Origin: Pseudonocardia pini
GTDB lineage: Bacteria > Actinomycetota > Actinomycetes > Mycobacteriales > Pseudonocardiaceae
Direction of reading: 5' to 3'
Length of the DNA stretch: 63,341 bases
NCBI RefSeq assembly: GCF_013870575.1
Contig: NZ_JACBXB010000002.1
Span: 1 to 63,341, forward strand
A program made the position numbers and the translations under genes. The notes beneath the pieces were generated by a model. It did not search any database. It was not told the origin of the DNA and saw only the letters and a program-made list of their open reading frames with translations. This document shows, piece by piece, positions 7,950-61,621 of this stretch; the stretch's first letter is position 1; each line of letters opens with the position of its first letter.

Positions 7950-8025
7950 GCCCCCGTAGCCCAACGGCAGAGGCAGCGGACTCAAAATCCGTCCAGTGTG
8001 AGTTCGAATCTCACCGGGGGCACCA
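7950..8025 (+). tRNA. tRNA-Leu(CAA); integration target of the island
   Basis: A cloverleaf folds cleanly. The acceptor gcccccg (7950-7956) pairs with cgggggc (8015-8021), followed by A and an encoded CCA (8023-8025). The T arm is gtgag-ttcgaat-ctcac (7998-8014). The anticodon stem is gcgga/tccgt with loop ctcaaaa, giving anticodon CAA (Leu, UUG codons). The variable region is only about 5 nt, whereas leucine tRNAs normally have a long variable arm; identity is therefore assigned by anticodon alone. The 3' part from 7987 to 8019 recurs in degenerate form at 61531-61564. Confidence 0.85.
7987..8019 (+). repeat. attL-like half of the island direct repeat
   Basis: The tRNA 3' segment from the anticodon stem through the T arm into the acceptor. 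It matches 61531-61564 at 32 of 33 positions with one extra G in the distal copy (the substitution is t8004 to c61549; the insertion is 61545). Integration at the tRNA 3' end leaves the intact gene at the integrase side, as here. Confidence 0.8.
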
Positions 8026-8125
8026 CCCTGACCTGCGGAAACGCGGGTTTCACGATCGACCCGCGGCCGCTTGGCCACAGTTTCGGCCACGAACCCGCGA
8101 ACGAGCTTCTTCTCTTCTCGAGTTC

Positions 8126-11314: not shown

Positions 11315-11397
11315 GGCGCCTGCTCAGCTAGCCCGCTCGCCCAGACCTGTCCCTAGTGCGTCATAGCCGTGCCAGCAGGCGCACTACCGTCATTCCC

Positions 11398-12408
11398 GTG
11401 GCCGACCTCATTCTCGTGACCTGCGTGAAGGCCAAGCGCTCCACACCCGCCGCGGCAAAGGACCTCTACACCTCACCGTTGTTCACCAAGCAGCGCGCCT
11501 ACGCCGAACGGCAACAAGCGCCGTGGTTCATTCTGTCCGCCGAGTACGGCCTGGTCGGGCCGGACGAATGGCTCGCCCCGTACGAGCGGTATCTCCCCGA
11601 CACGCCCCGCAGCTACCGGGCCGCATGGGGTTCCTGGGTCGTCGAGCGACTGGCCCTTCTCGCAGGCCCGCTGGCTGGGAAGACGATCGAGGTCCATGCC
11701 GGATCGACCTACGTCGACGCCATCCACGACCAGCTGCTGGCGAAGGGCGCCACAATCACGCTCCCGCTGGCGGGGCTCGGCGTCGGTCAACGGCTGAGCT
11801 GGTACGCGTCTGCGGTGGGTGTCGAGGCGACGCGGATGGACGGCGTGTCCACGTCCGTCGCGGCGACCGCCCCACAGCCGAGTATCGCTGAGTTCCTCGC
11901 TGATCCCTCCGGGGCTTTGGCCCCGGCGGCCTTCCTTGCCCAGGGCAGCGACGACCTCAAGGTGCCCGGTCTCTACAGCTGGTGGGTCGACGAGGAAGGA
12001 GCCGGCGATCTCAGCGCCGGGCTCGGCATCCCGCTGACCGCGGGCCTGATCTACGCAGGGCTCGCGGGAGCGACTCGTTGGCCGAGTGGCCGTCGCTCGA
12101 CCAACACCCTGTGGTCCCGCATCGCGGGGATGCACCTCGGCGGCCGCCACGAGTTCTCGACCTTCCGCCGGACGCTCGGCGCGATCCTGGCGCACGCCGC
12201 GGACTCGCCCGAGATCGACGAAACAGCGCTGACCGAGTGGATGTCCACGCATCTCGTCGTCGTCACGGCGCCCTACCCGGACCCGGACGACCTCGGACGA
12301 CTCGAGGAGCAAGTCCTCGACACGCTCGACCCGCCCCTGAACCTTCGAGGGAGACCGACCTCACCGATCCGGGCGCGGCTCACTGAGCTGCGCCGCCCAC
12401 ACCGGTAG
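11398..12408 (+). CDS. DUF6884 / GIY-YIG nuclease fusion protein
   Basis: 336 residues with two parts. The N-terminal half (about 1-150) matches DUF6884: LILVTCVKAKR, KDLYTSPLFTKQRAYAE, WFILSAEYGLVGPDEWLAPYE. The C-terminal half (about 185-325) looks like a GIY-YIG catalytic domain: GLYSWWV (190), LIYAGLAG (216), an arginine-containing helix TLWSRIAGMHLGG, and a late Glu in LEEQVLDTLDPPLNL (301) in the position of the catalytic Glu. GIY-YIG domains cut DNA with one metal ion. DUF6884 occurs in phage and defence loci but has no settled role. A GTG at 11398 starts the DUF6884 domain cleanly; the frame is also open from a GTG at 11356. It lies 84 bp after the nuclease gene and 8 bp from the convergent HerA-type gene. 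Confidence 0.6.
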   Translation: MADLILVTCVKAKRSTPAAAKDLYTSPLFTKQRAYAERQQAPWFILSAEYGLVGPDEWLAPYERYLPDTPRSYRAAWGSWVVERLALLAGPLAGKTIEVHAGSTYVDAIHDQLLAKGATITLPLAGLGVGQRLSWYASAVGVEATRMDGVSTSVAATAPQPSIAEFLADPSGALAPAAFLAQGSDDLKVPGLYSWWVDEEGAGDLSAGLGIPLTAGLIYAGLAGATRWPSGRRSTNTLWSRIAGMHLGGRHEFSTFRRTLGAILAHAADSPEIDETALTEWMSTHLVVVTAPYPDPDDLGRLEEQVLDTLDPPLNLRGRPTSPIRARLTELRRPHR

Positions 12409-12416
12409 GAGCATCG

Positions 12417-15400
12417 TCACTCGCGGGACATGAATACCTTCCTGGCCTCGGCCTGGTCCGGCGTGGAAACGTAGGCCTCCCCCACGCCGAGCTTCTCCAG
12501 CGCCACGGACATGTTCTGTCCCTCGCGGCCTCGGAGGAAGCCCGCGACAGTCTTGCTCTGCGGGAAGTTGCAGCGGAACGAGACCTTGGTACCGGCGTTG
12601 CTGAGGACGTCCTTATGGAAGTCGTCCACGCCCTGGCTGGCGACGACCACCGCGACGCCGTACTTCCGTCCCTCCTTCATGATCTTGGGGAGGGTGACGT
12701 CTCGGGCGAGGCGGTGGGCCTCGTCCAGGACGACGGCGAGGCGCAGGCGACCGGTGGCGCCCCAGCGGAACATCTCCCGGTAGACCTTGCGGAGCACGAA
12801 CGCTCCCGCCGCGAGCTGGACCTGTTCCATGAGCCCGTGGACGTCGAGCACGAGACCGCGGCGAAGCAGGTCGGCGAAGGTCGGACCGGAGTCCTGGTCC
12901 TCGACGAACAGGCCGAAGTCCGTCAGCGGTCGGAGTCGCGCGACGGTGTTCTTGCTCCTCCCGGACGCCTCCAACTCGGACATGATCTCGCCGAGCTCGG
13001 TCATCGAGGGCAGGCCGGTCGGTCCACCTGCGGAGCCGAAGCCGTGGCGCTCGTAGAGCTCCCGTGCACCCTCGTAGACGCCGTTGCGCTGGATTTCCCC
13101 CATCCCGCAGACGTAGGCGATCACCTCGGACAGCTCCCACGCGGCCTGGGCCGAGCGGCGGTGGTTGTCGTCCCGCATCTCGAAGGGCCGGATGGCGAGG
13201 CCTTCGGAGGCGTCGAGCACCGCGGCGCCGCCGGCCGGTTCCGCTGCCATGTCGCCGTGGAAGTCGAGGACGAGTGCGGGGAGGCCTTGGGCCGCAAACG
13301 AATTCAGCACGTGCCGGGTCGTCACGGACTTGCCCTGGCCGGGGATCCCGAGCACGAACATGTGCGGGCTACCTGCCGTGCTGATCCGCCAGCGCGCCGG
13401 TTCGCCGTGCCCGTCCTGCCCCAGGACGACCTCGACCTGTTGCGGGGCCCGCCGGTCGACACTGCTGGCGCCCAATGTGGCAGCAGGGAGCTCGACGGAA
13501 GGTGGTTCGGAACTGGTGGGCACCGGAGGCTCCGGACGCAGCGCGGGCTCGACCGCCGCTGCCGGGGTCTCAGGCGGCGCCACCGGGCGAGGCGCAGCGG
13601 CGTCACGATGGTCCGGCTGTGTCCCAGGGACCTCGACCGGCATCGCCGACCGCGGTCGCGGGGACGGACGGGGCCGCGGCGAGGGCCGAGCTGGCGCCTC
13701 GCGCAGCTCCTGAGCCTCCGCGACCTCAGGGGCGGGACCCCGACTCGGGTCCTGCTGCAACGACCGCTCAGATCCTCTCTCAGCCGCCGTGGAGGACCCG
13801 ATAGTCCCCTCGGCCCCGGCTGTCGTCGCCGCCGCGGACTGCACGTCGCCATCCGGGGTGACCACCGGGGCCTTGTGGCTCGCGCGCAGCCCGATCGGCG
13901 CGAGGTGCTCGGCGGTGAGCACCTCGATGCTTACTCCGCGATGCTCTCGTGGGAAGACCTCCTTGGCCCCCAGGCTCACGACATACCCCCGCCTGCCGAT
14001 CTCCGGCACCAGCGAGCCGTCCTCCACCTTCTCGAACATGCGCTCAGCGTCGGCGCGGCGGCGGTCGTCGAGCAGGCCGGTGGCCAGTGCACGGTCCGCG
14101 TGATGCCGCAGGATGCCGACCAGCCGGGCGCGCTGGAGCTGGGCGTCGATCCGGGGTGGGTCGGCGCGGAAGAAGGTGTCCAGCAACATGCTGCGGGTGG
14201 CGTCGACCTGCTCGACGATGTCGTCGACGAGCGCGGCAGGCAGGGCCGCCGCCTTCCTCGACTTCACCTCGACGCACTCCATGCGGAGGGTGCGGCTCGT
14301 CGCCCGGACGAGGATGAGATCGCAGCGCCGCGAGCCGGTTGCGTCGCCGGCGTCTCCGAACATCTCCTGATGGGCGTCGACCGGCACGATCACCGTGTCG
14401 TCGAGTTCCCCGCGGTGGCGCAGATACGCGACCAGTGCGGCGAGGCTGACCGCCTCGGTGGCCAGACTCGACTTGCCCACCAGCCGCAGGGCCAGCCGCC
14501 CCGACACGATCTGCAGGTTGCCCAGGATGTCGCGGATCGAGTCGTCCACGGTGGCCAGATCGAGCTCGGTCATGGCGTCGGCAAGCAGACGGGTCACCTC
14601 GCCGCGATGGCTCGTCGTGACGGTGAGGCGTGGGCCGAGGCCTTCGATGAAGTCCGGCGCGTAGTCCAGGATGTACGGCCGTTCCCGGCCCTCGGCCGCG
14701 ACCGCCTCGGCGAATAGGTCGATTCCGACGTTGCGGTCCAGGGTGAGCACCCAGTCCGAACGCTCATGGACCGCGTGCAGCGCGGCTACCTCGTCGGAGC
14801 CGAGTCGCGCGGTGACCGCCATCCCTGCACCTGGGAAGCCCAGCCGCGTCGCCAAGGCGCGCTGGTAGGCCCGGTGGCAGTCGACGACGTCCGCCGCGCC
14901 GTCCCGCCCCCGAGCGCGCAGGGCGGGGGCGGTGCGCCAGGCGATCCCGTTGCCGTCGGCGACCCGGACCGTCGTGGCTGGCGTCAACAGGTTGCGGAAC
15001 GAGGCGGCGACGTCCTGCGCCTGCTCGGCTCCGGAGGCTGACACCTGCGCGAGGTCGGACACCACGCTCAGCTGTGCGGCGGCGGACTGCTCGGAGAGCT
15101 CGTGGTGCGGCCGCACGCTCAGTCCGAGCGCCGGAGTGAGGTAGCTCCGAGTACCCCGGACCTGCTGGGAGGCGACCTGCTTCTGCAGATCGGTGAGCGC
15201 AGCCAGGGGGTCCGTGAACGAGGGCCTGCGGCTGTAGGCGATCACCTCGACGCGCGGCGGCGGGGCGACGACGTCGTCGTCATCGGTCGTCTGCTTGAGT
15301 GCCGACGCCGCGAGGGCCTGCGCGACGAGCTCACCGGAGCCCGGGTTGTAGGCGAGCATCCGCACCGAGTCCTGACCCGGATGCACGGTGCGGTACGCCT

Positions 15401-17537
15401 CGATGCGCTCCGCGACGACGGACGGTGGCAGGTCCGGCGGGACGTCACGGCGGTCCAGCCCGACCATGTCGAACACTGCCTGGACGGCGGCACCGGGCTC
15501 CGCTTCGCCCGGGTCGAGGTACAGGCCGGTGCCGAGCGTCGCCTCGCGGAGGTAGACCAGCGGCGAGCCCTCGACCGCGAGCACCGTGTACGGCAGGTTC
15601 GCGGGGGTGATCCGGGCGGCGAGGCGCGAGTCGACAGACAGCTTCCGTCGCGCCTTGGGCATCCCGGCGTCGATCATTTCGCGAGCCCAGGAGCGCAGGA
15701 CCGCATCGTGCTCGGCGAACCACGCCAGTCGCATGGGGTGCAGCGGCAGGACGGCGACGGCGGCGATGGGGAGGTGCCCAGCCGTGTCGATGCTGATCGA
15801 CACCGTGTCCATGGTCAGCAACGCGAACCGGGTCTCGTCGTCCGCCACCGCGTCCAGGGCCCGCCGATAGGTCTGGCAGTAGGCGGCGACCTCCTCGCGC
15901 AGTCCCTCGTCCCAGTCGAGGGTCTCGACGACGTCGCGGGGCGCGCGAGCGGCCAGCGTCGCGAAGAGCTTGCGGCGGCGCTCGGCGAGCGTCGGCGGGA
16001 GAGCGAGGGCGTGGCCCTCGATGTCCCGCTGGTCCAGCAACTCCCCCTGCCTGCCCTCGGTGGTCCACAGTGTCCGGCGACCCTGCTCCGCGAACGCCCT
16101 GCGCTGCAGGTCCACGAGCACGGGACTGAGCCCGAGCAGCACGGTGCGGCGGCCGCCGAGACGCAGCGAGAAGCCTCCGCCGCTCCAGCTCGGGGCATCC
16201 TCGGAGAGGTCGTTCTGCCCGTCGAGCGCGGCGTCGAGCCGAGCCTGGGCTAGGGAGAGCGCGGTCGAACGGCGTCCGCTGGTGCTGAGCACCTCCGCCT
16301 CCCACCGCAGGGCGAACTGCTCGCCGTCCGCGACGGCCTCGGAGCGGTCGGTGAGCAGGACCGGCTGGCCGTCGGCGTCGAGGCCGGTGACCCGGAGATA
16401 CAGCAGAGCCGCCCCGGCGAGGTCGTCCTCGTCGAGTTCGATCTTGACGGTCGCCCGGCGCTTGTCCCCCTTCACCGTGGTCCGCGCGACGGGCTCGGCG
16501 TCCGCTTCGCGGAGGTCCTCCGGGGGCAGCGCTTCGACGAGCCAGCGATGGACCTCGTCGGACTTGTCCGGGTCCGTCTTCCAGGTCACCGTGACCGAGG
16601 CGGGGGTCGACTCGCCGATCTCGGCGTACGGGAGCGTGCCCGGGCCGTCCTGCTTCAGCTTGGTACCCACCCGGAGCAGGCCGTCCTCCTTGAGGAACGG
16701 CACGACGGTCACCGTGTGGATCGGCACCGACTGCTGAATCGCCAGCGGCCAACAGTCGAAGGTCAGCTGTTCGTCGACGAGACCGGCCGCCCAGGCGTGC
16801 GCATTGGACAGGTCGACGTCCGGGCGGCCGAGGTAGCGGGCGATCCGGTCGCGGACGGCGCCCGCCTGCAGTCCGGCAGCTGTGATCCGGTCGGCGACCG
16901 AGGCGACGGCCCGCAGCGGCCGGGAGATCTCCTTGACGCACCGGGCGTTGCGGTCGAGCCGCTCGCTCAGATCGTCACCGCCCAGGTCGGGGATGAGTCC
17001 CACTTCAGGGAGCATGCGGCCCAACGTTGTCCACTCCGGGTCGGCGGAGATCGCGGCCACGTACCGCGCCCACGCCTCGACCGGCCGGTTCCGCCCCAGT
17101 GCTCGCGCCACCCGCTGGACGGCACGGCGAAGGTCGTCGTCGAGGTCCTGCACCAACGCGTCGGCCGCGGCGCGCAGCAGCCCGGAGAGGTCGGTGCGCT
17201 CGAAGCTGTTGTCCAGCGAGCTCGCGGCGGAGCCCGATCCGACGGGCACCATCAAGAGGAGCTGGCGCTCCTTGCGGTTCCGCAACTCGACCGCGCGCTC
17301 CGCGGCGATCACCACCTGCCCGTCGGCGGTGGCGGGGTCGTCGGCGAGCACATGGACGTCGGCGACGTCGTTCGGCAGGGCGACCTGCACCGCACGGACG
17401 AGCAGCGGTGCGTCATCGGAGCGGATCGAGTCGATCCGCATGCAGTGGCCCGGTGCATGGGCGTCCGTCTGCTCGACGAGCTGCTCGGCGATCTTCTCGA
17501 CGACGAGGGTGGGCAGCGGCGGGAACGTCACCGGCAT
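12417..17537 (-). CDS. Giant HerA-type ATPase with embedded PD-(D/E)XK motif (DptH/MAD8-like)
   Basis: 1706 residues. Residues 1-1000 form a long region with no motif I can name. Around 1060-1100, CDLILVRATSRTLRMECVEVK has the D-x(n)-E-V-K pattern of a PD-(D/E)XK nuclease. A proline/alanine-rich linker (about 1240-1370) leads to a HerA/FtsK-type ATPase: HMFVLGIPGQGKSVTT (Walker A, about 1399), LALVLDFHGD-like strand, Walker B LRLAVVLDEAHRLA (about 1600), then VVVASQGVDDF. Size, order and position as the last of three coupled genes match DptH of DNA-phosphorothioation restriction and MAD8 of the MADS system. HerA ATPases act as ring translocases on DNA. Its ATG at 17537 overlaps the previous stop by one base. 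It is probably the DNA-translocating and cutting arm of the module; that function is inferred. Confidence 0.65.
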   Translation of the reverse strand: MPVTFPPLPTLVVEKIAEQLVEQTDAHAPGHCMRIDSIRSDDAPLLVRAVQVALPNDVADVHVLADDPATADGQVVIAAERAVELRNRKERQLLLMVPVGSGSAASSLDNSFERTDLSGLLRAAADALVQDLDDDLRRAVQRVARALGRNRPVEAWARYVAAISADPEWTTLGRMLPEVGLIPDLGGDDLSERLDRNARCVKEISRPLRAVASVADRITAAGLQAGAVRDRIARYLGRPDVDLSNAHAWAAGLVDEQLTFDCWPLAIQQSVPIHTVTVVPFLKEDGLLRVGTKLKQDGPGTLPYAEIGESTPASVTVTWKTDPDKSDEVHRWLVEALPPEDLREADAEPVARTTVKGDKRRATVKIELDEDDLAGAALLYLRVTGLDADGQPVLLTDRSEAVADGEQFALRWEAEVLSTSGRRSTALSLAQARLDAALDGQNDLSEDAPSWSGGGFSLRLGGRRTVLLGLSPVLVDLQRRAFAEQGRRTLWTTEGRQGELLDQRDIEGHALALPPTLAERRRKLFATLAARAPRDVVETLDWDEGLREEVAAYCQTYRRALDAVADDETRFALLTMDTVSISIDTAGHLPIAAVAVLPLHPMRLAWFAEHDAVLRSWAREMIDAGMPKARRKLSVDSRLAARITPANLPYTVLAVEGSPLVYLREATLGTGLYLDPGEAEPGAAVQAVFDMVGLDRRDVPPDLPPSVVAERIEAYRTVHPGQDSVRMLAYNPGSGELVAQALAASALKQTTDDDDVVAPPPRVEVIAYSRRPSFTDPLAALTDLQKQVASQQVRGTRSYLTPALGLSVRPHHELSEQSAAAQLSVVSDLAQVSASGAEQAQDVAASFRNLLTPATTVRVADGNGIAWRTAPALRARGRDGAADVVDCHRAYQRALATRLGFPGAGMAVTARLGSDEVAALHAVHERSDWVLTLDRNVGIDLFAEAVAAEGRERPYILDYAPDFIEGLGPRLTVTTSHRGEVTRLLADAMTELDLATVDDSIRDILGNLQIVSGRLALRLVGKSSLATEAVSLAALVAYLRHRGELDDTVIVPVDAHQEMFGDAGDATGSRRCDLILVRATSRTLRMECVEVKSRKAAALPAALVDDIVEQVDATRSMLLDTFFRADPPRIDAQLQRARLVGILRHHADRALATGLLDDRRRADAERMFEKVEDGSLVPEIGRRGYVVSLGAKEVFPREHRGVSIEVLTAEHLAPIGLRASHKAPVVTPDGDVQSAAATTAGAEGTIGSSTAAERGSERSLQQDPSRGPAPEVAEAQELREAPARPSPRPRPSPRPRSAMPVEVPGTQPDHRDAAAPRPVAPPETPAAAVEPALRPEPPVPTSSEPPSVELPAATLGASSVDRRAPQQVEVVLGQDGHGEPARWRISTAGSPHMFVLGIPGQGKSVTTRHVLNSFAAQGLPALVLDFHGDMAAEPAGGAAVLDASEGLAIRPFEMRDDNHRRSAQAAWELSEVIAYVCGMGEIQRNGVYEGARELYERHGFGSAGGPTGLPSMTELGEIMSELEASGRSKNTVARLRPLTDFGLFVEDQDSGPTFADLLRRGLVLDVHGLMEQVQLAAGAFVLRKVYREMFRWGATGRLRLAVVLDEAHRLARDVTLPKIMKEGRKYGVAVVVASQGVDDFHKDVLSNAGTKVSFRCNFPQSKTVAGFLRGREGQNMSVALEKLGVGEAYVSTPDQAEARKVFMSRE

Positions 17538-19171
17538 CAGGCGGCTCCGAGGGGATGGTGGACGACCTGCACGGAGAAGTCGTCGGAGAGGCTGTCGAAG
17601 CAGCCGAGCAGCTGCAGGCGGACCTTGAAGGCCTCCAGGTTGGCGTCCGCGGCGGCACGGGCCTCGGCGCCGTCGAGGAAGGCGGGCGGCCGATCGATGA
17701 GAATGCCGAACCGCTCGTGGAGGAGGTCGAGGACGGCGCGCAGAGACAGTCGGGAGCTCACGACTCGGGTGTCCGAGTCGACGAAGACCGCCAGTAGGAG
17801 CGCCTGCAGGAGCTCGTCACTCGGGGCGTAACGCCAACTGCGGCGGTGCGGCTTGCTTCCCTGAAGGATCCCGTAGGGCTTCTTGATCCCGCCGACACTG
17901 GCGTACCAGTCCACGGAGTTCTTCGTCGCCTTCGACTGGTTCACGTAGTCCAGGACGTCGAGAAGCTTGTCCAGCTCGGAGCTGTCGGACGCCTGGATCC
18001 GGCGCAGGAACTCGATCTCCGCCTCGGTGGCGCCCTCCTCGGAGGCCCCGTCGATGAGATCGTCGAGCCGAGCTCCCGCGAAGCTCTCGACCCTTCGATG
18101 CCCCTTCAGCGCTGCAAGCGCGACCAACTCGTCTGGGCGCGGGAGCGCGCGGATCCGCTGCATCTCCTCCGGGACGCGCGACAGGGCGTTCTCGACGACG
18201 ACGAAGGTCATGCGGTCGCGGAAGGCCTGTCGAACCCGGTCGAGGTCACGCTCGATGCAGCGGCGGGACATCCGGTCCGACTCCGAGCCGAGATCACCGG
18301 TGAAGTCGCAGTAGAGCTCCAGGCCCGACGCCGGAGCGGACTCCGCCATGTCCGCCGGCCGCTCGCCGGCGAGAATCAGCTCTCGAGCCACGCGGTCGGT
18401 GCGCAAGGTGTAGGTGAAGAGTCCCACCGCGAGAAGAGCGGAGAACGTCGACATCAACGCGGGGGTCGGCAGCCGGTCCCCGTAGCACTCCACGTGCGCG
18501 AGCAGCGTCGCTCCGAGATCGGCTGCGACTCCGGGGAGCGGACTCGGGAACACACCACCCACAACGGGGCGGGCGTCCCCCATCTCGATGCCCTGGACGA
18601 AGCGGAACTCCAGCAGCGCGCCGATGTCGAGCTGGTCGGCATTCATCAGCTGCGGATCCCATCGCGGCTCCGGGCCCAGAGTGAGCCCCTTCCCCGTGGC
18701 ACGGGCGATGGTCTCGCGGAGGGTTGCCCGTGGGTTGCCGGCGCCTCGGCGCTCCAGATCCTCCACGAGGAGCCTGTATACGACGTCGTCGACTCCCCGG
18801 TGTCGCGCTCGCTGGGTGGGTAGGCCCGCCCGATAGGAGGCGAGGCTCAACGGAGCGGCAGCGAGCATCTGCTCGCCCTTTCGACTGAGGCCCACCGTCC
18901 CCATCTCCACCACGCACGACCGCAGCCAGCCGTCAAGCAGCACCCGGTCCGCCTTCTCGTCGAACCCGACGACGGCACCCGACGCCAGCATCTGGTCCCG
19001 ATAACCCGCGAAATCCTCGGCGTCGGTTGTCGGCGGGCTGGAGCGGCCGCCTTTCACACAGAGTTCGAGAAGGCGAGGAAGTACCCGATCTGTGTCCACG
19101 TCGAGCAGGGAGAACACCGTCAGCGGCCGGTACTGGTACGTCCGCAGCGCCTTGGGCAGGCTGATCGTCAC
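17537..19171 (-). CDS. Middle protein of the Dpt/MAD-like module (DptG/MAD7-like by position)
   Basis: 544 residues, largely alpha-helical by composition, with no catalytic motif and no membrane segment that I can see. It begins ISLPKALRTYQYRPLTVFSLL and carries a charged central region with ERDLDRVRQAFRDRM. A GTG start at 19171 overlaps the TGA of the kinase gene (GTGA), and its own stop overlaps the ATG of the HerA gene, so all three proteins should be made in step. Position between a DptF-like and a DptH-like gene suggests a DptG- or MAD7-like structural partner. This assignment rests on context only. Confidence 0.5.
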   Translation of the reverse strand: MTISLPKALRTYQYRPLTVFSLLDVDTDRVLPRLLELCVKGGRSSPPTTDAEDFAGYRDQMLASGAVVGFDEKADRVLLDGWLRSCVVEMGTVGLSRKGEQMLAAAPLSLASYRAGLPTQRARHRGVDDVVYRLLVEDLERRGAGNPRATLRETIARATGKGLTLGPEPRWDPQLMNADQLDIGALLEFRFVQGIEMGDARPVVGGVFPSPLPGVAADLGATLLAHVECYGDRLPTPALMSTFSALLAVGLFTYTLRTDRVARELILAGERPADMAESAPASGLELYCDFTGDLGSESDRMSRRCIERDLDRVRQAFRDRMTFVVVENALSRVPEEMQRIRALPRPDELVALAALKGHRRVESFAGARLDDLIDGASEEGATEAEIEFLRRIQASDSSELDKLLDVLDYVNQSKATKNSVDWYASVGGIKKPYGILQGSKPHRRSWRYAPSDELLQALLLAVFVDSDTRVVSSRLSLRAVLDLLHERFGILIDRPPAFLDGAEARAAADANLEAFKVRLQLLGCFDSLSDDFSVQVVHHPLGAA

Positions 19172-22100
19172 TGTCGCCTCCCGATGATCCGGCCGTCGAC
19201 CGCCTCCGCGGTCAGCCTGTTCCCGGCCCCGTCGACGACGAGAACCGACCGCGCAGGCTCCAGCCGTAGCCGCTGCCCGAACCCCTCGATCTCCTGACGC
19301 AGCGCCGCGGAGGCGGTGTCGCCGAGGACCTCGCCGTCGGCTGCGCGCAGGATGAGCTCTGCGGCATCGAGAGCGATCGCCAGTCGCTGGCCGCGCGCGT
19401 GCCGCAGCTCCAGGCGGTCGGCGAAAGACTCGATGTAGCCCGAACCCGACCCCACCGCGGCCAGCTCGAAGGTCGACGCCGGAAGCTCCTTGACCACGAC
19501 GATCGCGCGCACCGCCGGATCGTCGTAGGTGCGGTCGCGCAGGCCGAGCCCCTCCCCCTCGAAGCGCGGGAAGGCCAGGATCCGGGACAGCCCGAGGAGC
19601 ACCCGCGGCAGCGCGGACCCCGGCTTGTCCAGCGCCTCGAGGTACTCCTCGTAGTACCGGTAGCTCCGCACCTCGGCGCGGCCGCCGGGAGCGGTCCACT
19701 CGCCGAAGTACAACGACCGCTTCAGTCGGCCGAGCGACTCCGTCGTGACTGCGGCCAGGTCGGGCACCAGCGACCTCGACGACCTGGCCGCGCGAGCGGC
19801 GGCGGGAGCCGCCTGCCGCGCCGGGTCCAGCTCCCGCCACTCCTCGACGAGGTAGTCACCGGTGTTCGCCGCGAAGGCCAGATCGGGGGCACGGCGGCCG
19901 GATCCCGCACGCGGGTCCTGCCCCGACCGATTCTCCGCGTGCACGTCCTCACAGGAGAGGTCTCCGGTGATCAGCCACCCGTAGGCCGACCGGACGTCTC
20001 GCATCGTGGCGCGCCGACGCCGTCGGAGATGGCTGGTCAGGAGCAGTTCGGACACCGCCTCACGAGCACCGGGGGTGCGAAGCCGTTCGGCGTTGTCCCG
20101 GATCGGACAGACGTCCCGGGCGGTGCAGTTCTCGCAGTCCTCCCATCGCTCGTCCGCGGTGAACAGCGCAAGGACGTCGGTACCGAGCCCGGCGGCTCGC
20201 CGGTCCGGGGTCGCCAGCGCGCGGCGCTTCAGGTCGACCAGCACGATTCGTCCTTCGGCGGGCTCTCCTGCACGCTGCCGGTCGATCTCCTCGGCCAGCT
20301 CCTGGTAGCGGTCACCGAAGTCGGTGAGGAACTGGGCGATCCGGCCGTCGTTGGCCGCGAGCAGGGCCGTGTGCGCATAACCACCGGACGGGGTGAGCGC
20401 GGCGTGGATCAGATCGTCCGAGCTGAGCTCGCCGTGCGACTCGGAGGCGTCGTAGACAGCACTGAAGGTGCGTCCGTCTAGCTCCTTGGTCCATCCCGCC
20501 GCGTCCGAGCGTCTGGTGGTGGCACCGCGACGGTCGAGTGCCACCCCGACCTGCACGAGGAACGACGTCTTGCCGTCCCCCGGATTCCCGCTGAGCACGA
20601 CGACATCCAGTTCGCCCCCGACGACAGCCGGTAGCAGTGCCGTGTCAAGCAGCGTCTGCGCGTAGGTGCTACGGGCGAAGTCGTCGTCCATCCCGCGGTT
20701 TCCGGCGTTCCCGATCCCGCTGCGCCGGTACAACCCACGGAGTGCGGCGACGGTCGGGTTCACGACCGGACGTCCACTCCGGACGGACGTGTCGCGGGCG
20801 CGCAGGATCCGGTCCGCGTAGGTCGCGGCGTCCTGAGGCCGTGTGCCCGGATCGGCCGCGACGCCCTCGTACAACGCGGTGAGGAGGGCCCGGCCGAAGC
20901 GGGCGAAGTGCGCCTCGGTGGGCGGGACGAGGACCTCTCGCTCCTCCACACCCGGGCCGGAGTACGGGTACCGCCCCAGCATGACCCGCAGCAGAGACGC
21001 GCAGGCGCTGTAGATGTCCGCCGCCGGCGTCCAGTGCCGCCGTGCCCATACCTCCGGGGCGGTGAACGGCGGCGATCCGACCGCCGACTGCGCAGCGTCG
21101 GCCTTCGCGGCCAGGCCGAAGTCGATGAGCGCAGCACTGCCGTCGTCCCGCACGATGATGTTCGTCGGGCTCACGTCGCGGTGGTAGACGAGTTGCTCGT
21201 GAGCGTCGGCGAGCCCGCGCAGAACGTCCACGGCGATGCGACGGAACTGCTCCGCGTCGAGGTCGCGCCCCGCCGTGAGTTCCACCAGCGTCTGGCCGGG
21301 GATGTACTCCTGGACCAGGACGCCGGGTTCGGGCGCGTCGAGCACGTCGTACGGCCGAGCGCACCGCGAGCTGCGCAACGCGTTGCCATGGCGATACTCG
21401 TCGAGGACCTGCGCGTAGTCGACGCGACCGGGCCGCATGTGCTTGAGCGTGCGCGGCTCCCCGAGCTTCTCGTCGAAAGCCAGCCAGGTGACCGCCCACG
21501 CGCCCTCGCCGAGCTTGCGGTCGATTCGATACCGCGCAGCAAGCAGCGCCCCCGGCTCGAGGAGCGCGGGGCTCACCGGCGGCGTGACGGGTGGCGGGAT
21601 CGGCTTCGGCATCGGCATCGGCTGGGGTGCCGTTGCATCGGCAGCCTCGGCGGCATCCGGACGGTCGTCGTAGCGCGGCGACAGACAGCGAGCCAACAGC
21701 GCCCCGACGGCGGGATAGGACTGCACCCACTCGCGAGCCTCGGCATGGTCCGGCTGGTCCGACGGGTCGCCGCGCAACCATTGTGTGAGGCAGAGCGCGA
21801 GGCTGTAGACGTCGTCACGAGCGGTCAGGAACTCCAGCGGCGTGCCGGGTGCTTGGAAGGCCGCCGAGGGATGGTCCTCGTCGAGCGACGGGGCGATGGT
21901 CTGGGTGCGGGGCAGCTTGGAGCGGCTGAAGTCCCGGAACCGAACCCGGTTCGCCGGTGTGACCTCGACAGTTCGGAGCTGGAGGGCACGATGGAGGATC
22001 CCGGCGGAGTGCACCTCGGCCAGCGCGGTGAACGCGTCGTGCACGACCGCCACGCCGATCTGCTCGGGAACCCGGCCCTCGACGTGCGGCGGGAGCTTCT

Positions 22101-22965
22101 CGGCTGCCAACTTGCCCAGGCTCGACGCGTCCAACGCGACAATGACCGGCGTGACCCGGTAGCCCTCCCAGTCGAACCACTGCTGGACCCGCCAGGTGCG
22201 GCGCGCCGCAGCGAGCCTGTCGAGCGCATCGTGGTCCCGCACCGCGAGGCGGGCCGCCTCAGCAGGGTTCTCCGAGCCGGCGACCGGGACGCAGTAGAGC
22301 ATCACCGGGTGCCCGGCCGGAGTCTGCGCCGGGAAGGTCAGGGTGTTTCCCTGGACCGAGGGCTTACCCAGGACGTGGTACATCATGATCGTGGGTGGGA
22401 ACTCCGCGTCCCGCCGCTGTGGCAAACCGACCAGGTAGTTCATCAGCGACGAACGCAGCGGGGCCATCGTCGGCGGGAGCGCCGCGTCCTCCGCCACCAG
22501 CACCGAGGCCGCATCCTTCAGCCGGACGACGACGTTCGCACCCAGCTCGGCCGCCCCCTCCAGCCGGAGCGCGTCGTGCGACATCACGATGTGCCCGACG
22601 ACGGGATGGACACCGCGCGGCAGCTGCCGCTGCGCGCCGGCCCAGCCGGCCACCTTCTCGCGCAGCCGCCCGGCGAGGACCTTCGTGGCATGGACGACCT
22701 GGTTGCCGGGATTCGGCCGGTGCTCGCCATTGGAGTACCACCCGACCTCCCCGACGACGACGTGCGGCCCCCACGCCTTCTCCTCGCAGACGTACACGCC
22801 GTTCTCGCCCACCACGACGAGATCGAGGTCGACGGCGCTCATGTTGTGCGGGACCTGACGGCCCGCGATTACGTCCCACGACGATGGCAGCTCGGCCGCC
22901 AGCCGCCGCGCGGCCTTCTCCTCGCCCGGCCCGTGCCAGTCCCCCAGAACGTGCAGCCGTGCCAT
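19168..22965 (-). CDS. NERD / pseudokinase / Ser-Thr kinase / P-loop NTPase fusion (MAD6- and PglW-like, DptF-like C-terminus)
   Basis: 1265 residues with four parts. (1) A NERD nuclease-related domain at 1-130: DLDLVVVGENGVYVCEEKAW. (2) A kinase-like region at about 250-430 with HRAL instead of HRD and no DFG, so probably a pseudokinase. (3) After a proline-rich linker, a protein kinase at about 478-740: LGEGAWAVTWLAF, YHRDVSPTNI (593), LIDFGLAAK (615). (4) A P-loop NTPase with VVLSGNPGDGKTSFL (about 791), the motif style of DptF, and a Cys cluster CENCTARDVC near 942-951. NERD plus kinase is the make-up of PglW (BREX type 2) and MAD6. It is cytoplasmic, with no membrane segment. First gene of its operon; likely the sensor or switch. 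Confidence 0.7.
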   Translation of the reverse strand: MARLHVLGDWHGPGEEKAARRLAAELPSSWDVIAGRQVPHNMSAVDLDLVVVGENGVYVCEEKAWGPHVVVGEVGWYSNGEHRPNPGNQVVHATKVLAGRLREKVAGWAGAQRQLPRGVHPVVGHIVMSHDALRLEGAAELGANVVVRLKDAASVLVAEDAALPPTMAPLRSSLMNYLVGLPQRRDAEFPPTIMMYHVLGKPSVQGNTLTFPAQTPAGHPVMLYCVPVAGSENPAEAARLAVRDHDALDRLAAARRTWRVQQWFDWEGYRVTPVIVALDASSLGKLAAEKLPPHVEGRVPEQIGVAVVHDAFTALAEVHSAGILHRALQLRTVEVTPANRVRFRDFSRSKLPRTQTIAPSLDEDHPSAAFQAPGTPLEFLTARDDVYSLALCLTQWLRGDPSDQPDHAEAREWVQSYPAVGALLARCLSPRYDDRPDAAEAADATAPQPMPMPKPIPPPVTPPVSPALLEPGALLAARYRIDRKLGEGAWAVTWLAFDEKLGEPRTLKHMRPGRVDYAQVLDEYRHGNALRSSRCARPYDVLDAPEPGVLVQEYIPGQTLVELTAGRDLDAEQFRRIAVDVLRGLADAHEQLVYHRDVSPTNIIVRDDGSAALIDFGLAAKADAAQSAVGSPPFTAPEVWARRHWTPAADIYSACASLLRVMLGRYPYSGPGVEEREVLVPPTEAHFARFGRALLTALYEGVAADPGTRPQDAATYADRILRARDTSVRSGRPVVNPTVAALRGLYRRSGIGNAGNRGMDDDFARSTYAQTLLDTALLPAVVGGELDVVVLSGNPGDGKTSFLVQVGVALDRRGATTRRSDAAGWTKELDGRTFSAVYDASESHGELSSDDLIHAALTPSGGYAHTALLAANDGRIAQFLTDFGDRYQELAEEIDRQRAGEPAEGRIVLVDLKRRALATPDRRAAGLGTDVLALFTADERWEDCENCTARDVCPIRDNAERLRTPGAREAVSELLLTSHLRRRRRATMRDVRSAYGWLITGDLSCEDVHAENRSGQDPRAGSGRRAPDLAFAANTGDYLVEEWRELDPARQAAPAAARAARSSRSLVPDLAAVTTESLGRLKRSLYFGEWTAPGGRAEVRSYRYYEEYLEALDKPGSALPRVLLGLSRILAFPRFEGEGLGLRDRTYDDPAVRAIVVVKELPASTFELAAVGSGSGYIESFADRLELRHARGQRLAIALDAAELILRAADGEVLGDTASAALRQEIEGFGQRLRLEPARSVLVVDGAGNRLTAEAVDGRIIGRRQ

Positions 22966-23274
22966 CAGCGAACGGGCCCGGCCGGTCCAGTCTCCACACT
23001 CATCGCTTCCCCACCCGGAACCCGTTCGGCATCAGCCATCCCCCTCGTGCGCTATCCACCCATCGCCAGAAGATCACCCACCGTTACCGCTACGCCCTCC
23101 GGGGTAACCACTACCGACGTCCGGCGCATCGTCCCGCTACTCGGCGCCTCCCGCGGAGCCAGTCACTCGTTCGAGTGAGTACGAGATGGTCGGCCGCCCT
23201 CGCGACAGCCCGCTTGCCACGTGCGTGCGAGCGAAGCGTTCGACACCCTCGGCGGCCAGGGCGCTCCTGCGCGC
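22966..23274. promoter_or_regulatory. Gap upstream of the kinase-fusion operon
   Basis: 309 bases without a credible gene. It must carry the promoter for the leftward kinase/HerA operon unless transcription reads through from the nuclease gene upstream. The only clear structure is a compact palindrome, cactcg-tt-cgagtg, at 23164-23177, an operator-like site 200 bp before the start codon. No terminator hairpin was seen. Confidence 0.35.
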
Positions 23275-26737: not shown

Positions 26738-28717
26738 TCAGGCACCGCGCTGTCGTCGCGCGGCTTTCCATGCGGGATCGGCCGGAGTCGTCGACGCACC
26801 GCCGGGCCTGCGCAATGCCGCGGGCAGTGGGTTGGAATGGATGATCACGAGTTCGCGGTTCGCCCGGGTCAGGCTGGTGTAGAGCAGCCCGTGCCCGCCG
26901 AGTCGCGGCGGGAAGTTGCCCGGCTCGACGACGATCGCGGCGTCGAACTCCAGCCCGCGCGCCTCCTGCGGATCCAGCACCCGCACCCGCTCGCCATCTC
27001 GGACCATCGTGGTGTCGTCGGCTGGGTCCTCGTGGTAGCCGGCGATCCGGAGGGCACGCACGACCTGCTGTGGAGCCATGCTGATCACGGCCGCGGTCCC
27101 CTCCGGATGGCGAGAAAGCACGGCCGACACCTCAGCGGAGACCCGTATATAGAGCTCCGTCGGGCGCGCCTTCCGGATGGCCGGCGGGACACCTCCGGTT
27201 TGGAGTGACTCCACGGTCTGCTCTTCTCGAGACAGCAGCCTGCCGGCGAACTGCATGATCGCGGCCGTGCTTCGGTAGCCACACCGGAGAGTCTCGACAG
27301 CGAGGGGTCGCCCGAGCACGGTCGAGACCCGGGACCAGCTGTGGCAGCTCAGGTCAGAGCGACGCTGGTTGATGTCACCCAGCAGAGTCCAGGAACCGCG
27401 GTTCATCCTCATCAACACGGCCCACTCGAGAGCCGTGAGATCTTGCGCCTCATCGACGATCACATGGTCGTAGGCGTACGGGGGTGCTCCGGCCGCTGCC
27501 ACCCCACAGGCCGCCAGCAACCCCAGGTAGCGGCGCTGAGTGCTCGCGAGCTCGAACTCCGGCAGTTCACGGAGGTACCTGGCCCAGTCACGATCGCGGG
27601 TGAGGCGTGCCCGACCTACTCTGTTGTGCCGAAGCGCCTCGTATACGTGCCGCACACAGTCGGCGTGCGCCACCCGCGGACCGATCTCACCCTCATCGCG
27701 GAGCAGGCGCGCGGCCTGCTCCGCGAATTCCGCGAGTTCGCTGTGGGTGTCACGGAGTACGACAGGCTGGCTCCCGTCGATCTGAGCGGAGAGCCCGCGG
27801 AACTCGAGCAGCACCTCCTCGATGGCCAGGGAATCGACGCTTCCCTCCTCCTCGACGAGGTCATCGATCACACCACTGATGTGCCGGACGTAGTGCGCAG
27901 TCGGCCCGACGATCAGGACACTGCGGCACCGCTGTTCGTTGTCGCGATGGACGAGGAACGCGGCACGATGCGCGGCGATGACGGTCTTCCCGGTTCCGGG
28001 GTGGCCCTGGATCACGACGGACGCGTCGGCAGCCGCCGTGACGTGCGTGTACTGGTCTGGCTGCAGGGTCGCCAGCACGCTGGTGAGCCGCTCGGCACGC
28101 GGCGCCTCGATGGCGGCCAACACGGCAAGTCCTGCGCGGAGCGTCGAGGCTGTCTGCTGAGGCTGGGCGGGCTGGCGATCGGTTCGCGCCTGCGCGGCGG
28201 ACTTGAGGGAGCGCTGCTCAGGGATGGATCGACCGGGAAGCGGCCGCCGCGCAGGTGCCTTCGGAATCGAGAGCCTCCGGGCGGCGAACGGCTCGGCGGT
28301 CCGGGGCGCCGGCCCGTCGTCGTCCACGTAGTCGGTGATCTGCCCGCCGCGGCGCAGCAGCGTCCGACGTGCCGTGACCCGTGGGCACAGGTCATGCGTT
28401 CCGCGGTTCTGGAAGAACGTGCTCGCGATCGGCGCCGCCCAGCTGAACACCATCAGGCCGTCGGCATCGAGGGGGCGCGAGCCGATGTAGAAGTTCGTGC
28501 CGTCGAAGAAGTCGGTGTGCTCGGCCAGCTCGACGCGACCGAGCAGACCGCGGCGCGGTGGCACCGGGGTCAGGGCTGCCTTCGAGGGAATCCGTCGAGC
28601 ATCGCCGTATCCCTGGTGGACGGGAACGCGGCGGCTCTCCTCTCGTCGCAGACCGATCCGGTACCGCTCGTCGGCGGCGCGCTCGTCGGCGATGGCACGC
28701 TCGGCACCGTGCTTCAT
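26738..28717 (-). CDS. HelD-like superfamily 1 helicase/ATPase
   Basis: 659 residues. The N-terminal block NFYIGSRPLDADGLMVFSWAAPIAS followed by RRTLLRRGGQITDY matches the conserved HelD/HelR segment (usually YIGR, then DWRAP, then RR). Superfamily 1 motifs: Walker A VIQGHPGTGKTVIAAH (about 237), Walker B HVIVDEAQDLT (about 420), LLGDINQR, and motif VI region LLYTSLTRANRELVII (about 612). HelD proteins are UvrD-like motors that remodel RNA polymerase, and relatives act on DNA. Its ATG overlaps the stop of the SNF2 gene (ATGA), tying it to the same operon. Lys- and acid-rich coiled arms typical of HelD are not obvious, so the target could be DNA. Confidence 0.7.
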   Translation of the reverse strand: MKHGAERAIADERAADERYRIGLRREESRRVPVHQGYGDARRIPSKAALTPVPPRRGLLGRVELAEHTDFFDGTNFYIGSRPLDADGLMVFSWAAPIASTFFQNRGTHDLCPRVTARRTLLRRGGQITDYVDDDGPAPRTAEPFAARRLSIPKAPARRPLPGRSIPEQRSLKSAAQARTDRQPAQPQQTASTLRAGLAVLAAIEAPRAERLTSVLATLQPDQYTHVTAAADASVVIQGHPGTGKTVIAAHRAAFLVHRDNEQRCRSVLIVGPTAHYVRHISGVIDDLVEEEGSVDSLAIEEVLLEFRGLSAQIDGSQPVVLRDTHSELAEFAEQAARLLRDEGEIGPRVAHADCVRHVYEALRHNRVGRARLTRDRDWARYLRELPEFELASTQRRYLGLLAACGVAAAGAPPYAYDHVIVDEAQDLTALEWAVLMRMNRGSWTLLGDINQRRSDLSCHSWSRVSTVLGRPLAVETLRCGYRSTAAIMQFAGRLLSREEQTVESLQTGGVPPAIRKARPTELYIRVSAEVSAVLSRHPEGTAAVISMAPQQVVRALRIAGYHEDPADDTTMVRDGERVRVLDPQEARGLEFDAAIVVEPGNFPPRLGGHGLLYTSLTRANRELVIIHSNPLPAALRRPGGASTTPADPAWKAARRQRGA

Positions 28718-31700
28718 CGCGCGACCTCCAGGTAGCAGACGGCGATGTGCTCCATCCGCAGCTCCGTCGACTTCTTGTCCTCGAGGAGGCGCAGCGCCTC
28801 TCGATGCCGCTCCCGAGCGCGGCGTTTCTGCCCTTCGAAGAGCTGGAGCGCTCCGCGCCCATTGGCACGGGCGGTCTGCATCCGGCGCTCGATCACGCCC
28901 TCCTTGCGGCGAAGCTGCTCCTCGAGGCTCAGCCGTCGGCTGTCGGCGAGGGCAGCGCCTTCAGCGGACCGTCGCTGCTCCTCGTCCCACTGCCGCTCGT
29001 CGAGCAGGTCGGTCGCCCGCGAGATCGGCCCGACGAGCTGTCCGGCATCGGCCGGGCCGTCGGCCTCCCTCAGCTCCCCCCGGGCCAGGGCCGCGAGGAG
29101 GGCGTGGGGCACAGCTGTCGGAGCCTCGCGTCCGTTCAGGTCAACTGCAGCGCCCCAGAGCTCTCGAACTGCGCGTTCGCCGCCGCCCTCGACGCGGGCG
29201 AGAACGACCGCGTACCGGCCGGGCTCGGCGACGCCGTCCGGATCGTGAACGCGAACCTGCGCGAAGCGGGCCTGCCTGTGGCCGGGCACCGACACCGCGG
29301 CGAGGACGAGCGGGTGGGTCGCGGTGAGCAGCGCTCCCCCCGTGGTGCGCGCGTCCTCCTGGTCGAGAGCGAGCGGCAGGTCGGCCTCGTCACGCAGCGC
29401 TCGCGCGAGTTCGACGACTTCGGTCTGCAGGCGGTCGCCCCGGCGGGCCACGTCCTGGAGTTGGTCGCCCATCGCCGCGTTCCCCCGCAGGGTGACGTGC
29501 ACGTCGTCGGCACGGGTGATGCCAGGAGCCCCAGCCGTGTCCGCCCAGTCGTGCAGGAGGTGCGCCAGCTCCTTCTGACCGACATAGCGGCCGGCCCGCA
29601 CGAGCTCACGCTCGAGCCCGGTGACGTCGACGTCGTTGCTGACAAGTAGATCTGCCGCGGCGCCTGCCAGCCGTTCGGCCTCGGCCTTCTTGGCGGCGAT
29701 GGCGGTCATCACCTGGTCCGCCTTCGCCTCACGCTGCGCGACGTCGAGGTCGAAGCTGTAGACCGCTTCGCGAAGCGAGGAGAGCTCGGACTGGATGATC
29801 GGCTCCAACGCGCCGATGGCGCGGGTGAAGACGCCGATGCGCTCGAGCACGCGCGTGAGGATCTTCTCGTCGATGGTGTCCTCGTTGTAGAAGTTGACGA
29901 TCCGGATCTTCTGCTCGCGCTGTCCGATCCTGTCGATCCGGCCGATCCTCTGCTCGACCTCCATGGGGTTCCAGGGCAGGTCATAGTTGATCACTGTCGA
30001 GCAGAACTCGAAGTCGAGGCCCTCACTGGCCACGCGGTTGGCGAGCACGACGTCGAACTCGCCCTTGCGGAACTGCGTCATGACGCGCCGCCGCTCCTCC
30101 CGTGGAACACCGCCGTGCAGGACCGCGACACGGGCCTCGCCCGAGAGGCGGTTCCTGAGATAGGTGAGCGTCGGCCGGGAGAACGTGAACAGCAGCGTCT
30201 GCTTGCCCTGCCGGATCAGGTCCTTGAGGATCGGCAGCAGCACGTCGAACTTGGAGTCGACTCCGCTCGGCAGGGCTTTCGCCGCCGCGAGCAGGTCGCT
30301 GTGGGGCGGCACCGTCGAGGCGGCGCTGGCGGCGGCGGGATCGTCCTCGTCCTGCGGTGCCCACTGCTCGGTGTGACCGAGGACGGCGGCGCGGGCGGCG
30401 GGGAGACAGGCACTGGCCAGCCGAAGCGGCATCTGCATCGCGAAATGCAGAGGCATGTTCACCGCCTCCGCACGCCGACGGCACCAGTTCAGGTACTCGC
30501 TGTAGAAGTCACGCTCGGCGTCGGTCCAGACGACCCGCTCGGTGTGCGGGTCACGGAGAGCCTTGGCGTCGTCGATCTCCGCCTTCCGGGTGCGGGTGAC
30601 CGCAGAGGACAGGGCGTTCAGGTCCGCGAGGATGCGGCGCGCCTCGACGACTTGAGCCGGATCCAGGATGTCCTGGCCGACGAGCTCCCTGAGCACCTTG
30701 TAGTCCGGCCTGCTCATCAGCGCAGAGCCGAAGGTCATGTCCTTGAGGTCGTCGAGGACCGCGAGCCGCTCGGCGCCGTTCGCGGTCCGGTTGAGGAGCA
30801 GGCTCTCGATGCGGTGCAGGACCGCATTGGGCTCCAGCCGCAGCTCCAACACGTGGGGGTCGTCGAAGTCCTCGGGTGCCAGCAGCTCGAGCATGCTCGC
30901 CAGATCGTGGTAGCCGAGGTTGACCGGCGTCGCGGTGAGGAACACGCGGGCGTCTGCCCAGTCGTTCAGCCGCACACCGAGCTCGTGGCTCTTGGTGCCG
31001 GGGTTGCGCATCTGGTGTGCCTCGTCGACGACGATCAGGTCCAGTTGCGGCGGGGCGTCGTCGAACTCCTCGAGCCCACCCCACTTCCGCAGACGCTCGA
31101 GGCTTGTGATGTATCGGAAGCGCTTAGGCAGCCGGTCCTGCCGATGCTGCTCGAGGAACCGCGCCAGGCCCTTGGTGTCGAGCTCCTCCAGCTCGAAGGT
31201 GAAGCGCTCCTCCATCTCGTGCTGCCACTTCCCCACCAGCGACGACGGCGAGATGATCAGTACGCGGTCGGCCGCCCGCCGAGCCTCCAGCTCCGTCCAG
31301 ATGAGACCCGCCTCGATGGTCTTGCCCAGGCCCACCTCGTCCGCGATGAGGATCCGGGTGGCTCCGGTGTGCAGCAGCCGGAGAACGGGCTTGAACTGAT
31401 ACGGGCGGAAGACGGTCCGGGTCGCCCGGAACGAGAAGACCGTGTCCGTCAGCGAGGCCGCGAGCTTGCCCCGGGTGAGAGTCGCGCCGAAGCGGTCGAT
31501 GGCGGCCGGAGCCGATCGAACCCACTCCGCCGGGCCACCGAACTCGGGCGCAGACTCCAGCGCCGACTCCGTGAAGCGCTGCGAACGGCCGTCGAGCCGC
31601 ACCTCGTAGCGCCACACGCCGGCAACGAATCTCCGGGACTTGATCTCGGAGTCCTTGCCGTCGGAGCGGGTGACGACGCTCTCGCCGATCCCGAACCGGG

Positions 31701-32064: not shown

Positions 32065-32181
32065 GTCACTCCCCCGCCGCCATTGTCCAGTCGTCGTGAC
32101 ATCGCCACCGCAGGTGCGAATGCGACGAATCGCGCAGCAGATCATCTATTTGGAGTAGACCGTTGAACTGTTTGGGCCTGG

Positions 32182-48005: not shown

Positions 48006-48265
48006 CACCCCAACGTAGCTCACGTTCACAGAATCGCGCAACTTTGTGAACATTGCTCGGGCGCTCACATCTGTGTACGCTCGTGCCTGCCGGGCTACCG
48101 CTCTGGCGCATTGGGCCCGGCGAGGCTGCGGCCCGCAACGCTTCTCGAGGCCGCAAAGCCTTGGCGGCTCCATCGCCGCGCCCGCCACCCGAAGCCCCGG
48201 GGCGACGGCTCCATCGGTCGGTTCGATCCCCCAAGGACGGCTCCCGCGTACCGAGAGGATCTGAG
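48006..48265. promoter_or_regulatory. Divergent promoter and operator upstream of the type I operon
   Basis: 260 bp between divergent genes. gttcaca (48024-48030) and tgtgaac (48045-48051) form an inverted repeat with 14-bp spacer. On the minus strand it overlaps a possible promoter, TTGCGC then TACGTT (48017-48012) with 18-bp spacing, placing the transcription start close to the GTG at 48005. The HTH protein encoded there may bind the site and repress its own operon. The remaining 200 bp show no gene. Confidence 0.5.
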
Positions 48266-51339: not shown

Positions 51340-51394
51340 CGAAACACCGCGACACCCGCCGCCATCACCCGATCGTGAGCCCCCATGAGCGTTG

Positions 51395-51408
51395 GGTGAC
51401 CGATCACC
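51395..51408. promoter_or_regulatory. Short palindrome before the ATPase operon
   Basis: ggtga-ccga-tcacc, a 5-bp stem, 37 bp before the ATPase start and partly matched by an inverted sequence near 51364. Either an operator or the end of the preceding transcript. Confidence 0.3.
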
Positions 51409-51445
51409 GCTAGCGTTCTCGAAGCACGACCATCCGGGGGGATGT

Positions 51446-57880: not shown

Positions 57881-57883
57881 GGA

Positions 57884-61564: not shown

Positions 61565-61621
61565 CTCCCCATCCACCTGTGAAGAGTGCGGCCCTCGTCG
61601 GCCTTCGTGGGGTGTGAGCCG

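Follow-up and report, generated by a model that had tools for sequence, protein, structure and literature searches.

How does a DNA-cutting defence module spare the chromosome of its host when no modification genes accompany it? The question is raised by three genes, here called F, G and H, on the minus strand at 12417-22965 of a contig of Pseudonocardia pini. The window analysed is that entire contig (63,341 bases; the genome comprises 6.05 Mb in 1,246 contigs and is 91% complete). An earlier note, made from the letters alone, had linked the trio to DptF/G/H and MAD6/7/8 and held that self-recognition must come from elsewhere, most simply from the HsdM/HsdS pair upstream. Our analysis supports the view that the trio is a kinase-fused DndFGH/MAD6-7-8 module without dedicated modification genes, and it establishes the composition of the module, its conservation, the coupling of its three genes and its independence from any one methylase gene. 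Going further, we see an even chance that the trio is the restriction-effector core of a MADS/DndFGH-type system lacking the methylation block, self-contained, with self DNA spared because the core stays off until infection.

Domain organization of the trio

The reading frames of F, G and H are uninterrupted across their full length. F (19168-22965, minus strand; 1265 residues) is of the MAD6/DndF type, with a NERD domain, a pseudokinase, a Ser/Thr kinase and a P-loop DndF core in that order, and it is matched by Pfam NERD and Pkinase and by PADLOC mad6 and SspF. The NERD nuclease-like domain (22633-22926, minus strand; residues 14-111, Pfam 5.7e-10) carries a DLD...EEK motif that is conserved in the alignment of F proteins. 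HRA and DFS replace HRD and DFG in the pseudokinase (motifs at residues 322-349), while the kinase that follows it (Pfam stretch 20953-21531, minus strand; residues 479-671, 1.8e-30) has HRD...DFG. The Walker A motif of the DndF-type P-loop domain, GNPGDGKT, lies at 20557-20604 (minus strand; residues 788-803), and the SspF match (2.1e-20, residues 788-1011) identifies the P-loop core of DndF.

G (17537-19171, minus strand; 544 residues, GTG start at 19171) is the DndG/MAD7 subunit. H (12417-17537, minus strand; 1706 residues) is a DndH/MAD8-type subunit matched by Pfam HerA_C/DUF87 and PADLOC mad8. It combines a methyltransferase-fold region seen in the predicted structure (14604-15626, minus strand; approximately residues 638-978), a PD-(D/E)xK nuclease motif, D...EVK (14241-14330, minus strand), and a HerA/FtsK-type ATPase domain with conserved Walker A and Walker B motifs (12435-13436, minus strand; residues 1368-1701, the PADLOC mad8 stretch). 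F and G overlap by 4 bp and G and H by 1 bp, so that the three genes are coupled as in DndFGH. The open frames, Pfam matches and motifs confirm the three tightly overlapping genes described in the earlier note, encoding a NERD-pseudokinase-kinase-P-loop protein, a 544-residue partner and a 1706-residue HerA protein with EVK. The nearest trios among named genomes are those of Pseudonocardia, and against P. halophobica the ratios of nonsynonymous to synonymous substitution (dN/dS) are 0.082 for F, 0.095 for G and 0.091 for H, which marks all three as genes under selection and not chance frames.

Relation to MADS and DndFGH

Against the NCBIfam models G reaches 460.4 bits for MAD7, above the cut-off of 410. 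F stays below the MAD6 cut-off despite having the same layout (337.7 of 460 bits; Hymenobacter control 644.1), and H stays below that of MAD8 (67.8 of 175 bits), as does the Hymenobacter control (165.5). H also matches the solved DptH ATPase 7es4 in sequence (1.9e-5). The predicted structure of G (mean predicted local distance difference test score, pLDDT, of 80; built from 18 sequences) was compared with solved structures by VIA-align 2, where DndG 7exx ranked first (Z 19.4, root-mean-square deviation (rmsd) 8.6, 379 aligned; runner-up Z 3.5). DndG was not among the best 50 matches of a Foldseek search with the same model, and a PDB sequence search with the G profile matched nothing. The MAD7 score, the DndG fold of G and the DptH match of H bear out the proposed kinship with DptF/G/H and MAD6/7/8.

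The model of H covers residues 440-1235 (mean pLDDT 77, 16 sequences), with the N-terminal SNF2-like and helix-turn-helix domains lying outside it, and shows the fold of class I methyltransferases (Z up to 12.6, rmsd 2.9, 165 aligned). The motif [NDS]PP[FYW] is absent from this region in all 33 aligned H proteins; the single such string among them is at residue 310, beyond the fold. Because the fold holds no such motif, the methyltransferase-like domain of the modelled H looks catalytically dead, and self-methylation by H was rejected on this ground.

The window trio can be placed against four known systems. Its F and H align with MAD6 and MAD8 of the Hymenobacter plasmid locus and of six actinobacterial MADS loci, with NERD, kinase, P-loop, nuclease and HerA motifs in common; it differs from MADS in having no MAD2 or MAD5, in the scores of F and H under the MAD6 and MAD8 cut-offs, and in belonging to a separate clade of 29 loci. 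With DndFGH, DptFGH and SspFGH it shares the three coupled genes, the DndG fold, the DndF-type P-loop and an H made of HerA, nuclease and dead methylase region, but it is without phosphorothioate genes. The order NERD-pseudokinase-kinase is common to F and PglW of type 2 BREX, a parallel between DndF and PglW drawn in passages of PMC12839542, which also indicate that the domains after the PglW kinase are not the DndF core; F scores 58.5 of 990 bits against NCBIfam PglW. ARMADA, as described in PMC12458937, consists of the RapA-like helicase ArmA, the PglX-like methylase ArmB, the YprA protein ArmC and the GajB-like helicase ArmD. The window differs from it in lacking the ArmB methylase and the ArmC YprA helicase, and has only a distant ArmA-like helicase (28714-32145; 31-33% over parts).

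A clade of 29 loci without a methylase pair

Relatives were collected by a scan of GTDB contigs (18 loci), a family search that added G212 and G271, and a MAD7-model search across 394 genomes of the class, which yielded 15 genomes including that of the window. A tree built from 36 concatenated loci, with the single Hymenobacter sequence as root, groups 29 loci including the window's in one clade (support 1.0; one near-identical pair, L026/L027, is among them) and six actinobacterial loci in another (support 1.0). MAD2 and MAD5 are present in 6/6 of these actinobacterial MADS loci, and over stretches of 16.9 to 63 kb each the pair is tied to the trio in none of the 29. The 29 cannot be counted as independent cases: a single loss at the clade's base, or a single gain in the other loci, is enough to account for the difference. 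Both kinds are found side by side in Actinomadura xylanilytica (L035, L046), where a MADS with its own MAD2, MAD5, MAD6 and MAD7 starts approximately 5 kb downstream of a window-type helicase-F-G-H unit. Apart from this MADS, the MAD2 matches near trios over the stretches covered are two weak ones (24% and 27%), namely the HsdM of the window and a type I-like methylase near L038.

The statement that the window has no MAD1-5 block accordingly holds for MAD2 and MAD5; for the other three the scans were negative or weak, with no NCBIfam MADS1, MADS3 or MADS4 name among the matches listed for 30 window frames and faint PADLOC matches of mad3 to the product of 51392-53863, a generic SMC-like ATPase (76 bits), and of mad1 at 46323-48188 (19.9 bits).

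The nuclease, ATPase, kinase and P-loop motifs are conserved across the clade, with the exception of five F proteins that have HAD or HGD for HRD. The nuclease and HerA motifs are kept in every one of the 33 aligned H proteins (EVK being EIK in Hymenobacter). Some apparent gaps follow from late starts of the frames used: in the motif alignment the NERD stretch is trimmed by late F starts in G487 and G353, the F of G456 has the NERD motif when read from its full open frame, and the G-H gaps of G573 and G456 reflect late H starts. The F-G overlap is 4 bp in 26 of the 29 loci, and in the remaining three the F frame is disturbed. Disturbances are seen in L037, where both F and H are affected, in L030, at the end of F and in H, and in L029, where F continues into G. 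The H of G556 is shortened.

Extent of the homologous unit

Comparison of the window with 60 kb of Pseudonocardia autotrophica gave one homologous stretch, 12417-23256, with a gap at 13476-13883, plus one 156-bp match. Homology ends at the stop codon of H on one side and 291 bp before F on the other, leaving HsdM/HsdS outside, which indicates that no methylase belongs to the unit. The stretch 5' of F (22966-23256, minus strand), common to the window and the P. autotrophica trio, is presumably a leader or promoter region; a sigma-70-like site was sought there and none was found. The Nocardioides loci L041 and L043 likewise share one block of 12,168 bp at 94.7% identity up to the H stop codon, starting 236 bp before the helicase gene described below, and have no further gene in common. 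Carriage on plasmids was rejected: among 72,556 plasmid records one had a G-like protein (E up to 1e-5), and that one (Hymenobacter) is a true MADS.

Beside the unit in the window, a PDC-M57A-like gene (11356-12408) ends 8 bp from the H stop codon. The 156-bp match is a piece of this gene (11397-11552) and corresponds to the leader side of the P. autotrophica trio; a homolog of the gene lies downstream of the L041 trio, possibly marking a shared insertion spot.

Helicase gene and ARMADA neighbourhood

A UvrD-like helicase gene of 520-590 codons stands directly before F, overlapping it or within approximately 30 bp of it, at 11 of the 29 loci (L034, L035, L038, L039, L041, L042, L043, G271, G401, G475 and G525). 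It was absent from the stretches examined of all six true MADS loci, and from the locus neighbourhood at 12/14 loci of the window's own subclade. One gain with a later loss in that subclade is the simplest reading of the tree.

ARMADA-like genes, assigned by domains and mutual similarity and not with the models of PMC12458937, lie around, beside or within approximately 9 kb of the trio at six of the 29 loci (G271, G299/L028, G302/L031, G456, G556 and G475). The helicase-F-G-H unit of G271 sits between ArmB and ArmC: an ArmA-like RapA-type helicase and an ArmB-like methylase precede the helicase gene, and H is followed by a YprA-type ArmC, a DEAD-helicase-MZB protein of 2030 residues, and by an ArmD of the UvrD type. 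All four ARMADA genes are upstream of the trio in G299, ending 4 kb before F, where approximately 6 kb of unrelated sequence separates ArmB from ArmC, and all four are within approximately 9 kb of it in G302. ArmA-ArmB-ArmC point away from F in G456 and G556, the latter with a kinase gene in between, and ArmB-ArmC-ArmD adjoin H in G475. The only control for this closeness is the true MADS group, where neither ArmA nor ArmB was found in the stretches examined (0/6). Since defence genes cluster, closeness does not prove partnership, and ARMADA is best described as a recurrent neighbour of the trio.

Sparing of self DNA

We propose that F, G and H would assemble into one complex. DNA would be gripped by G together with the dead methylase-like region of H, moved by the HerA domain and cut by the H nuclease. 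F would act as sensor and switch: its P-loop domain may bind a nucleotide or a phage product and its pseudokinase-kinase pair may then release the H nuclease, with the NERD nuclease of F as a second line. Self DNA would be spared since the complex stays off until infection, and not through marking of the chromosome by a partner enzyme. Assembly into a single complex, its triggering and the part played by the kinase are inferences.

The most serious competitor, although an unlikely one, is that the trio reads whatever methylation the resident defence systems lay down, be it by type I enzymes, ARMADA ArmB or others, with the reading part co-evolving locally. The ARMADA-like genes close to the trio in 6/29 loci favour it, and so do methylases of other families within approximately 20 kb in G212, G300, G309, G312 and G314; against this, clustering of defence genes happens anyway, and L041 and L043, whose trios are nearly identical (dN 0.013-0.021), differ in the methylases close by. 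We searched genomes with PF02384, PF01555, PF07669, PF00145, PF02086, DndC and the G271 ArmB protein, and no methylase family was common to all trio genomes searched (20 or 21 of the 29). PF02086 was found in none of 20 trio genomes; G212, G299, G307 and G308 are without PF02384 and have other methylase families. No ArmB-like protein was found in the window genome. DndC was not found there either, in keeping with the claim that dnd modification genes are absent, and its only occurrence in 20 trio genomes is in G299, on a contig other than the trio's. Phosphorothioation as the self mark was rejected on these grounds, DndC not being found in 19 of the 20. That no single family recurs speaks against borrowed marks, as does G303 (Actinomycetospora endophytica), which gave no match to any of the five Pfam families, to ArmB or to DndC at the thresholds used, a negative in which thresholds and the choice of families could hide a methylase, MmeI-type and other enzymes fell outside the search, and genome completeness is not given.

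These limits weigh against a trio that does without marks, and other points join them. The methylase searches reached only the 20 or 21 genomes named. The ArmB of G271 was overlooked by PF07669 at 1e-6 and found with its own sequence only, which means that family scans do miss methylases. Various kinds of methylase lie within approximately 20 kb of the trio in many relatives, leaving room for borrowed marking. HsdM is the sole intact methylase detected in the 91%-complete window genome, along with two C5-methylase pieces, and it shares an island with the trio. A single sequence roots the tree, which makes the order of losses and gains uncertain. Activity, trigger and complex are predicted only.

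Somewhat less probable again is a suicide response triggered by infection, in which the host cell is killed by the kinase and NERD domains of F as the main effectors, so that self and non-self DNA need not be told apart. The kinase and NERD motifs are kept in the aligned F proteins of the clade, including G456, and Rakesh, Aravind and Krishnan (2024; PMC10853773) read the NERD and kinase domains of DndF as backup suicide effectors. The five F proteins with HAD or HGD tell against it, and retention of the H nuclease and HerA motifs in 33/33 H proteins suggests that DNA cutting by H matters.

We regard as very improbable the proposal of the earlier note that the trio obtains its self mark from the HsdM/HsdS pair of the window. 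HsdM (44332-46326, minus strand; NPPF motif intact) and HsdS (43076-44335, minus strand) do lie upstream on the same strand, as stated, but approximately 20 kb away, and they are followed directly by an HsdR of their own (39969-43079, minus strand; D...ELK nuclease motif intact) that the note left unmentioned. All three are outside the module, in a six-gene type I cassette, MT2-HsdM-HsdS-HsdR-RhuM-STK (37410-48188), that includes RhuM and a kinase-TPR gene. Pseudonocardia sp. MH-G8 (G302) has the identical six-gene order on contig C42 (L044), with its trio on contig C3; identities to the window cassette are 77% for HsdM, 71% for HsdR, 70% for RhuM, 54% for STK, 50% for MT2 and 30% over part of HsdS. 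The pair has points in its favour: true MADS uses a methylase-specificity pair, MAD2/MAD5, and, besides being the only intact methylase found, HsdM lies with the trio in one tRNA-Leu-flanked island. A second copy of the 3' half of the tRNA-Leu gene (7950-8035; half 7987-8035) is found at 61531-61579 (local score 57, where 177 control pieces reached 26 at best), and the defence genes, trio and Hsd cassette included, appear to lie in an island of approximately 53.5 kb between these repeats, as an integration site would leave. Yet HsdM scores 48.2 of 720 bits against MAD2 (Hymenobacter plasmid MADS control 844.1) and HsdS 24.5 of 400 bits against MAD5 (control 444.5), far under both cut-offs. Among 297 genomes of the family the trio G (E up to 1e-20) occurs in eight and HsdM (E up to 1e-80) in 59; HsdM is in one of the eight trio genomes, the window's own, versus 58/289 of the remainder. 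The cassette with its own HsdR, this co-occurrence and the homology boundaries, which exclude the pair from the P. autotrophica block, are the grounds on which HsdM/HsdS was rejected as the partner of the trio.

It is scarcely credible that the trio is a decaying remnant without function, a reading that could draw on the disturbed frames of L037, L030 and L029 and the shortened H of G556 (where assembly errors are possible), given that the window copy is intact and has dN/dS of 0.08-0.10 versus P. halophobica.

Other genes in the window

MT2 of the type I cassette (46323-48188) combines an N-terminal part resembling a helix-turn-helix with an N6-methylase-like part that has CTPP instead of the expected NPPY; the coupled MT2-HsdM pair is seen again in G302, G311 and probably G305. 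A two-gene unit at 56375-60508 encodes an 874-residue protein, with no Pfam, NCBIfam or PADLOC match, and a 501-residue AAA/SF1-like helicase; pairs 53-76% identical to it are found near window-type trios in G212, L032/G227 and G525. At 32182-36356 a PLD-nuclease protein is paired with a 503-residue protein; G353 has such a pair again (35% and 46%), downstream of a true MADS. The plus-strand run at 49371-56351 (a DEDDh exonuclease, a small gene, the SMC-like ATPase with the mad3 match and a GmrSD-type nuclease) is likely a further defence unit.

Discussion

The layout of the trio and the absence of dnd genes are already published and not new. PMC10853773 describes DndF proteins fused to a NERD domain and to an inactive and an active kinase in tandem, and DndH as a dead methylase domain with nuclease and HerA. 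It reports DndFGH components in 1,798 taxa and all eight dnd genes together in only 316, argues that DndFGH is commonly stand-alone, with linked modification genes no defining need, and proposes sensing by DndF. This argument, together with G303, where no methylase was found in the five families tested, removes the necessity from the claim that self-recognition must come from modification.

The words UvrD, PglX and DrmD are absent from the main text of PMC10853773, and HerA, kinase, DndF and MADS from PMC12458937. Within the open-licence literature we found no published description of the helicase-F-G-H unit, nor any of this unit nested in an ARMADA-like operon, and a methylase-free offshoot of MADS with helicase-bearing and ARMADA-nested forms was not found in print in that literature. 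From an evolutionary point of view we can offer a tentative scenario, on which we would put less weight than on the self-contained effector core itself: a branch of MADS may have shed its methylase and become a mark-free effector switched on by a kinase-and-nucleotide sensor, the mobile unit, running from the leader to the H stop codon, having gained a UvrD-like helicase and plugging into ARMADA and other systems.

Opinions differ on whether DndFGH-type nucleases require a DNA mark to leave the host unharmed: most accounts treat them as the cutting half of a restriction-modification pair, as against the stand-alone role argued for in PMC10853773. The related actinobacterial loci provide a natural contrast between those with a methylase pair (6/6) and those without (29), both kinds being adjacent in Actinomadura xylanilytica, and with this contrast the need for a DNA mark becomes directly testable.

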